Positions 16,447-53,751 of a DNA stretch of 64,000 nucleotides are shown here, piece by piece. Position numbers and translations under genes: made by a program. The stretch spans positions 62,001 to 126,000 of the forward strand of contig NZ_VHLL01000001.1 in assembly GCF_025384765.1 (NCBI RefSeq), written 5' to 3'. Under the pieces are notes generated by a model that was given only the letters and a program-made list of their open reading frames with translations, searched no databases and was not told the origin of the DNA. The DNA comes from Methanoculleus formosensis. Its GTDB lineage: Archaea; Halobacteriota; Methanomicrobia; Methanomicrobiales; Methanoculleaceae. Each line of letters begins with the position of its first letter. Within the stretch, counting starts at the first letter, position 1.

Positions 16447-16534
16447 ATCTCGCGCGAAGACGCGAAGAACGCGAAGTCCTGCATATGGGTGTTGACAACT
16501 CCCTCTTCGCGCCTTCGCGTCTTCGCGTGAGTTA
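16447..16534. repeat. CGCGAAG-type intergenic repeat, copy A
   Basis: The left arm at 16451-16476 is built of CGCGAAGA-like units. After 28 bases the right arm at 16505-16530 carries the same units in reverse complement (CTTCGCG). The arms could form a long imperfect hairpin. Related copies lie at 27987-28014, 45162-45239 and 53424-53645. Confidence 0.75.
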
Positions 16535-27928: not shown

Positions 27929-27986
27929 CCCGGCACTTCATTAAAACGGGTAAGGTAAACTTCAAGAGGTCAACTCATCGACTTCC

Positions 27987-28014
27987 CTTCGCGTGCTTCG
28001 CGGCTTCGCGTGAG
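27987..28014. repeat. CGCGAAG-type intergenic repeat, copy B (single arm)
   Basis: Three CTTCGCG units in a row between cgi121 and the convergent moaB gene. Only one arm is present, unlike copies A and D. Confidence 0.65.
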
Positions 28015-45161: not shown

Positions 45162-45239
45162 TCTTCGCGTTCTCCCGCGTGGAAGCTAATAGGTGCAGAT
45201 AACGATACGGCCTCACGCGAAGAACGCGAAGCCGCGAAG
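45162..45239. repeat. CGCGAAG-type intergenic repeat, copy C
   Basis: A strong arm at 45213-45239 (CTCACGCGAAG then further CGCGAAG units) is preceded by a weaker reverse arm at 45162-45180. The flank GATAACGATACGGCCTCACG also matches copy D, so the repeat extends beyond the short units. Confidence 0.7.
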
Positions 45240-53261: not shown

Positions 53262-53751
53262 GATATTCTCCCTGCGGCAATATGGGTTTATCTTTTTCGC
53301 GTTCCGGAGAAGTAGTGCGCACGACCTCAGTGCCTCGTGCGAAGACGTCAAATCCGGAAATTTGCCGCCAATTTCGTTAGCACTCCTCGAATGCCCGGAT
53401 TTTGCTCCAACGGAGAGTCGTCCTTTGTATGAGGCCTTATCGTCGCCTTTTTACTTTCAACTCACGCGAAGAGCGCGAAGGATGCGAAGATCGGTAGAGG
53501 GCTACCAGAAACTCCCCTTCGCGGCTTCGCGTTCTTCGCGCGAGGCTGTATCATCGCCTATAAACTGTCTGCTCACGCGAAGCCGCGAAGAACGCGAAGA
53601 ACCGTTTGGTTGTGAGTTACTCCCCTTCGCGGCTTCGCGTGGGCTTTCAATTTCCAGAGTGGATCGGGTGATACGCCCTCGGGGGGAAGTATTCCGTGGA
53701 GCCCTTGCGTCTCGTTCCCGGTCCGGGCATCCGGAGAACTTATGTATATGA
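53262..53751. other. Intergenic region filled mainly by repeat copy D
   Basis: The 490 bases between the divergent polB and signal peptidase genes hold two tandem hairpin units of the CGCGAAG family. The right end has TATA-like CTTATGTATATG at 53738-53749. Confidence 0.6.
53424..53645. repeat. CGCGAAG-type intergenic repeat, copy D (two tandem units)
   Basis: Unit 1 pairs the arm 53461-53489 with 53515-53543, and unit 2 pairs 53572-53601 with 53622-53642. The linker before each unit (GAGGCCTTATCGTCGCC and GAGGCTGTATCATCGCC) is also conserved, giving a repeat of about 110 bases. Confidence 0.8.

Follow-up and report, generated by a model that had tools for sequence, protein, structure and literature searches.

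Arrays of CGCGAAG units in the window

The window is the whole stretch of DNA that was analysed, 64,000 nucleotides (contig C1, positions 62001-126000) of the 2.65-Mb, 19-contig genome of Methanoculleus formosensis. A preliminary description had located copies of a dispersed hairpin repeat at 53424-53645, 16447-16534, 27987-28014 and 45162-45239, and at all four places the sequence reads as claimed. The 53424 site begins with a 35-nt linker (53430-53464, TGAGGC...CTCA) whose left array is missing and which was recognised by its sequence and by a length in the same class as the other linkers. A first hairpin follows (53462-53543), consisting of TCA, two CGCGAAG units with TGCGAAG as third unit, a 27-nt loop and three inverted units. 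Another 35-nt linker (53541-53575), assigned from the linker length survey, joins it to a second hairpin (53573-53642) with TCA, three CGCGAAG units, a 25-nt loop and two inverted units. The hairpin at 16450-16530 contains three units, a 28-nt loop, three inverted units and a TGA end. At 27935-28014 a single inverted array of three units (27987-28010) lies behind a stretch similar to one half, the left, of MITE-1, an element described below; this likeness was judged by eye, is below the scoring threshold and was scored as belonging to neither MITE. One inverted unit, a linker and three direct units make up the site at 45162-45239. The array assignments are unstranded and rest on the sequence and the counts of unit pairs, for the three hairpins also on the predicted fold.

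Open reading frames flank all four sites, and Pfam backs a neighbour at three of them, in agreement with the claim that the copies are located between genes. RNase III and MFS genes converge on the array at 45162, genes for CGI-121 (below its cut-off) and MoCF converge at 27987, and at 53424 a DNA_pol_E_B gene points away from the array; neither ORF beside the 16447 site is supported by Pfam. Two of the four sites are thus placed between converging genes. CGCGAAG occurs 46 times in the window compared with a mean of 21.3 and a maximum of 32 in shuffled sequences. Pairs of the form CGCGAAG-N1..3-CGCGAAG number 14, every one of them at the four array sites, and shuffling produced none. The genome-wide search for copies that had been suggested revealed 94 forward and 81 reverse pairs (about 175), and 0 for a reversed-pattern control. 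The window is without a match in Rfam and contains no tRNA, and a plasmid search using the window element as query gave no match.

The anatomy of the arrays was surveyed in 41 fetched stretches and the window. Among 72 arms, 45 contain three units, 26 two and one four, and TCA precedes 53 of the 72. The commonest of 119 spacers were C (49), AA (28) and AG (13). Two types of gap alternate, a hairpin loop of mostly 23-28 nt and an inter-hairpin linker of about 34 nt. The sequence of this linker is partly conserved (TGAGTTAA...CTCA), and 17 of 22 linkers between back-to-back arms (35 fetched stretches and the window) measure 32-35 nt and the other five 42-45 nt, which bears out the conservation noted earlier. 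The statement that the opposite arm is the reverse complement of the first holds for the heptamers, which are inverted, but is inexact for the arm as a whole because the 1- and 2-nt spacers of facing arms do not mirror each other. In facing three-unit arms of the local genome set the spacer-length order 2-1 stands opposite 1-2, and facing spacers were equal in length in 1 of 26 positions where about 12 are expected by shuffling. The rule of unequal facing spacers is local: the triplets that flank 34 bacterial genes on both sides agree in facing spacer length in 67 of 68 positions. Judged from the sequences, the arrays may be protein-binding sites, one of three earlier guesses, since the heptamers and not the full stem are conserved between facing arms.

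The predicted RNA fold of the arrays is strong (z about -5 to -6.5) because any inverted repeat gives one. A function as terminator, the second guess, found no support: a bacterial-type model of a hairpin with a T run gave 2 terminator-like sites, compared with 0.9 +/- 1.1 in shuffles. As C is the commonest spacer we also considered the stable DNA mini-hairpin GCGAAGC; this idea was dropped because it does not accommodate units with a different spacer or heptamer. Another short hairpin (GAGCACCG..AGGTGCGAAG) was repeatedly seen beside or within array loops (L003, L061, L063 and L070).

Array polymorphism and MITE carriers in the genus

The comparison of empty sites among relatives, which had been proposed as a check of mobility, confirmed that the 53424 site is polymorphic. 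The query matched in 35 of 35 genomes of the genus, and in the 30 loci compared arrays were present in three (the window genome, G016 and G047) and missing in 27. Between the same anchors the array-free loci contain 23-41 bp in 22 cases and 138-158 bp in five. G016 and G047 carry a single hairpin, the window genome carries a different, longer array insert, and G097 and G050 are continuous without a hairpin. No target-site duplication was established in the comparison of these 30 loci. The number of array pairs per genome ranges from 0 to 728 within the genus.

Analysis of the window genome revealed that CAGTACTTCGCTAA is common, at 34 places, to a 1.3-kb insertion sequence and many array-bearing copies. 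The insertion sequence encodes a transposase of the ISH3 family (NCBIfam NF033541, E 3e-80), for which Pfam returned no family. MITE-1 is an element of about 230-290 bp that has CAGTACTTCGCTAA as terminal repeats and contains several arrays. In the window genome, 40 array clusters were scored as full MITE-1 (12), half MITE-1 (4), full MITE-2 (2), half MITE-2 (2) or neither (20); the MITE share is inflated, as 5 of the 40 came from stretches fetched via the terminal repeat. ISH3-type terminal repeats are located on both sides of 12 clusters, halfway present in 4 and absent in 24. About a third to half of the sampled local copies thus also lie inside an ISH3-type or a second MITE, and hitch-hiking mobility is likely for part of the arrays. 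It does not define the array family, since 20 of the 40 clusters lie in neither MITE; the ISH3-family MITE is true of a subset and not of the family as a whole.

CGCGAAG hairpins are also present within the second MITE, the ends of which resemble GGCTTTGTTGAAATGCTTTCC (L022, L065, L066 and L077; L118 and L174 in M. sediminis). The ISH3-family insertion sequence is multi-copy, located at positions 2-1319 of contig C14 (L081) and at the ends of several contigs of the window genome. Several contigs end about 110 bp away from its terminal repeats, so that the assembly was probably broken by the element.

GxxExxY genes framed by inverted arrays

A scan of public genomes returned CGCGAAG triples in at least 118 stretches from archaea and many bacterial phyla. 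Among the stretches listed some are coding repeats, many look intergenic with TCA or AAC as leader, and a few triples are located directly upstream of genes of the GxxExxY type (PF13366/TIGR04256). A profile search of 199 genomes from the class of the window organism demonstrated PF13366 in 6 of 34 genomes of the genus, and CGCGAAG arrays adjoin the gene in 6 of 6. By their flanks these genes represent three loci, each common to two genomes, and the gene is apparently broken in two of the six (G070 and G149). Genomes with the gene contain 19, 199, 220, 284, 382 and 728 array pairs; for the 28 genomes without it the median is about 11 (Mann-Whitney p 0.0005). Counting against a link to the gene, PF13366 is absent from the window genome and six others of the 12 array-rich genomes of the genus. 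At gene locus A the element is filled in 2 of 30 loci (G011 and G047), and 40-53 bp are present in three others. This locus is a variable spot: most relatives carry inserts there that are unrelated to the element.

GxxExxY genes in another family of the class are mostly enclosed by long inverted repeats, the outer parts of which are CGCGAAT, CACGGAA or CGCTAAT arrays, and one genome of the class has 18 PF13366 matches. In four genomes (G119, G122, G138 and G165) GxxExxY genes often occur as inverted pairs (+ then -) about 2-8 kb apart; these are possible composite elements.

Among 50 genomes of many phyla that contain CGCGAAG triples, 42 have PF13366. These genomes were picked for their arrays, by eye from the 118 or more stretches; coding-like repeats (for example loci of Streptomyces, Byssovorax and Pseudoduganella), second loci within one genome and others beyond 50 were left out. 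In an array-blind draw of 147 genomes of Sphingomonadales the gene was present in 15 of 19 genomes with arrays versus 8 of 128 others (p ~1e-11). The four genomes with arrays and no gene (G273, G287, G313 and G353) count against the association, as do the eight with the gene and without the tested array pattern.

When all samples were pooled (unselected archaeal, Sphingomonadales and Bacteroidota samples together with the genomes picked for arrays), inverted arrays flank the gene on both sides in 74 of 111 cases and on at least one side in 98 of 111. The values for both sides and at least one side are 17 and 22 of 25 in the class, 21 and 26 of 30 in the array genomes, 21 and 23 of 26 in Sphingomonadales, and 15 and 27 of 30 in Bacteroidota. 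In a same-locus control with the gene slot shifted by 700 bp, arrays on both sides were detected in 0 of 153 and 1 of 60 slots (1 of 213), and in random window slots in 0 of 2000. The class set comprises 25 of 30 loci; the five omitted (L238-L242) are weak matches within larger proteins, without an inverted repeat (scores 9-11). One weak match (L298) was omitted from the 27 of Sphingomonadales, and the 30 loci of Bacteroidota are the best match per best-scoring genome.

In the usual layout three units flank the gene at either end, and the unit differs among elements (CGCGAAG, CGCGGAG, CACAGAG, CGCGAAT, CACGAAG and others). The coding sequence extends into the downstream array in Methanoculleus and Sphingomonadales, so that the array specifies the C-terminus of the protein (SSRLRVN, SPRLRVN). 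The gene of Bacteroides finegoldii is located between radA and a gene for an FAD-dependent protein, and that of Sphingomonas parapaucimobilis between fabD and fabG, where just one of the two sides was seen to have an array. In Sphingomonadales at least 8 of the 26 genes precede a fabG-like start, so that the gene looks fixed there and not jumping. Inspection by eye of 20 Sphingomonadales stretches chosen for paired arrays revealed one array pair inside a pair of another unit in about half of them, for example CGCAGAG outside and CGCGGAG inside in G328, or CGCGGAG outside and CGCAAAG inside in G393. This nesting suggests that the interior of an existing array may be a favoured target, or that composites spread as one. 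Gene-less copies in Sphingomonas have ends in common with the gene-bearing copy and, by eye, not obviously the inner sequence, which counts against reading the arrays as gene-less copies of the element. Patterns based on single proteins gave no match in viral contigs, and none was found in 50,697 phage records. Eight of 72,556 plasmid records contain the gene; by eye, arrays are present on both sides in three (L364-L366), on one side in L363, and unclear or absent in the other four (L367-L370).

Unit type was compared with a protein tree built from 117 columns and 78 sequences, in which many forks are unresolved and 68 proteins have a unit label. The last three letters of the unit require 13 changes on the tree, compared with 29-40 in shuffles, and 0 of 300 shuffles reached 13. 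Similar results were obtained for the last letter, G versus A/T (4 changes, shuffles 13-21), and for AAG versus GAG in Sphingomonadales (2 changes, shuffles 4-11). Counting against this, unit type does not significantly follow the tree in the array-genome subset alone (24 of 300 shuffles). The tracking of the protein tree by the unit argues that array and gene travel together over evolutionary time, like one element.

The GxxExxY protein itself looks like a putative nuclease of the PD-(D/E)XK type. All three proteins scanned exceed the NCBIfam cut-off of TIGR04256. Eight diverse members have in common the invariant GxxExxY, D67, ELK77-79 (E77, K79) and QxxxY91-95 (Q91, Y95; numbering of L203). 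The motifs D, E-x-K and QxxxY are thus present in the order of PD-(D/E)XK nucleases of the Cas4/RecB/lambda-exonuclease group. With a low-confidence structure model (pLDDT 61.4) the best matches, all of them weak, were Cas4 SSO0001, lambda exonuclease and Hjc; the best VIA match was Cas4 SSO0001 with Z 7.7, within the range given as common. A Foldseek search with this model returned no match at E<=0.001, the PDB sequence search nothing convincing (one match, E 1.2), and PADLOC only weak matches to RT-associated PDDEXK and Cas4. In PMC8934634 the name GxxExxY labels a gene beside a reverse transcriptase.

Origin of the arrays and relation to known systems

The association of gene and arrays extends across phyla with a common architecture, and unit and protein co-evolve. 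From these observations the hairpins of the window are best read as gene-less, non-autonomous copies of GxxExxY elements, which the putative nuclease may have spread together with repair; as a whole this reading is more likely than not. That the arrays belong to such elements we consider highly probable; that the nuclease drives their spread has about even chances. A full element would consist of a leader (TCA, AAC or TCG), about three units of 7 nt separated by 1-2 nt, the GxxExxY gene and an inverted triplet. The protein would recognise its own unit array or the hairpin formed by it and cut or process the DNA there, and repair would then place copies of the arrays, accompanied by the gene or not, at further positions between genes, both in cis and in trans; the scheme resembles the one proposed for the spread of REPINs by RAYTs. 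The nested copies suggest that spread may also involve opening of a hairpin or cruciform formed by arrays already in place. Since the window genome lacks the gene, its arrays would be decaying relics or be carried by ISH3-type and other MITEs. A non-autonomous mobile element, the remaining earlier guess, is the best of the three, given the polymorphism at 53424, the carriage by ISH3-type MITEs and the array-framed candidate partner.

The arrays could instead grow by replication slippage or recombination, with GxxExxY as a passenger that repeatedly lands in them. The persistence of arrays in the 7 of 12 array-rich genomes of the genus that lack the gene and the nesting of different units in several Sphingomonadales loci would fit, but unit type tracks the protein tree (0 of 300 shuffles), and only 4 of 124 gene-less Sphingomonadales genomes contain arrays of the tested pattern; we regard this as rather improbable. 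Somewhat less probable still is a reading in which the arrays are simply part of the interior of MITEs that the ISH3-family transposase and another insertion sequence mobilise, with GxxExxY irrelevant to spread in this genome. The 34 places with CAGTACTTCGCTAA and the inflated count of 12 full and 4 half MITE-1 and 2 full and 2 half MITE-2 speak for it, whereas 20 of 40 clusters have neither terminal repeat, the same arrays lie within two unrelated MITEs, and arrays accompany the gene in phyla across the bacteria.

Selection of binding sites or terminators that serve the host into intergenic places would account for the location of each of the four window sites between genes, which converge in two cases, and for the strong predicted RNA hairpins. 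It is an unlikely explanation, as arrays are absent from 27 of 30 loci at 53424, vary from 0 to 728 pairs within one genus and do not mirror their facing spacers. REP or REPIN elements served by a RAYT (Y1/HUH transposase) have a similar layout of inverted pairs, intergenic, clustered and beside a cognate gene. This explanation was rejected and has next to no probability left: of the 12 array-rich genomes of the genus, 11 are without a PF01797 match at E<=0.001 and the twelfth, G133, has one of 20 bits, below the cut-off; the clear matches sit in array-poor genomes.

If the arrays are gene-less copies of GxxExxY elements, a cause and a candidate enzyme would be at hand for repeats in many bacterial and archaeal genomes, and a function for a protein family named only by its motif. 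Gene-less copies of the ends of a tiny, widespread element would be one explanation for scattered short microbial repeats. Tentatively, with somewhat less than even confidence, we suggest that many scattered short-unit repeats of prokaryotes (CGCGAAG, CACGAAG, CGCAGAG, CACAGAT, CGCGAAT and kin) belong to one undescribed class of minimal mobile elements in Bacteria and Archaea, in which a unit-specific PD-(D/E)XK nuclease would spread itself and gene-less copies without a transposase. The question can be tested with one short protein and one short synthetic array.

The closest known nuclease groups are PD-(D/E)XK homing endonucleases and the Cas4/RecB/lambda-exonuclease nucleases. The GxxExxY protein resembles them in the order D..ExK..QxxxY, and Cas4, lambda exonuclease and Hjc were the weak matches of its low-confidence model; unlike theirs, its gene is bounded by inverted short-unit arrays with gene-less copies. 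By the family cut-off it belongs to TIGR04256/PF13366, a named family without a stated function, and the family listings and literature found, as far as accessible, do not mention framing arrays; the open-access subset searched gave no description of a link between the two. ISH3-family MITEs have their terminal repeats around 12 of the 40 sampled clusters, but half of the clusters are without either repeat and the gene-framing arrays are without sign of ISH3.

The nearest parallel is the REPIN-RAYT system (Bertels & Rainey 2011, PMC3116915). Both have inverted pairs of a short sequence, numerous scattered copies that lack the gene, clusters in tandem, a cognate gene with the same sequence on its flanks, and a sequence type that goes with the protein type. 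In GxxExxY elements the dispersed inverted pairs accompany another gene, the partner being PD-(D/E)XK-like, unrelated to RAYT and not a Y1 transposase. The ends are runs of about three 7-nt units, the elements occur in archaea and several bacterial phyla, and the gene can be multi-copy. The Sphingomonadales gene in front of a fabG-like gene resembles a RAYT that has settled rather than a gene that jumps. The arrays resemble REPIN-RAYT but do not belong to it, because no RAYT above the cut-off is present in the array-rich genomes of the genus; if our reading is true, they represent a second, independently evolved counterpart.
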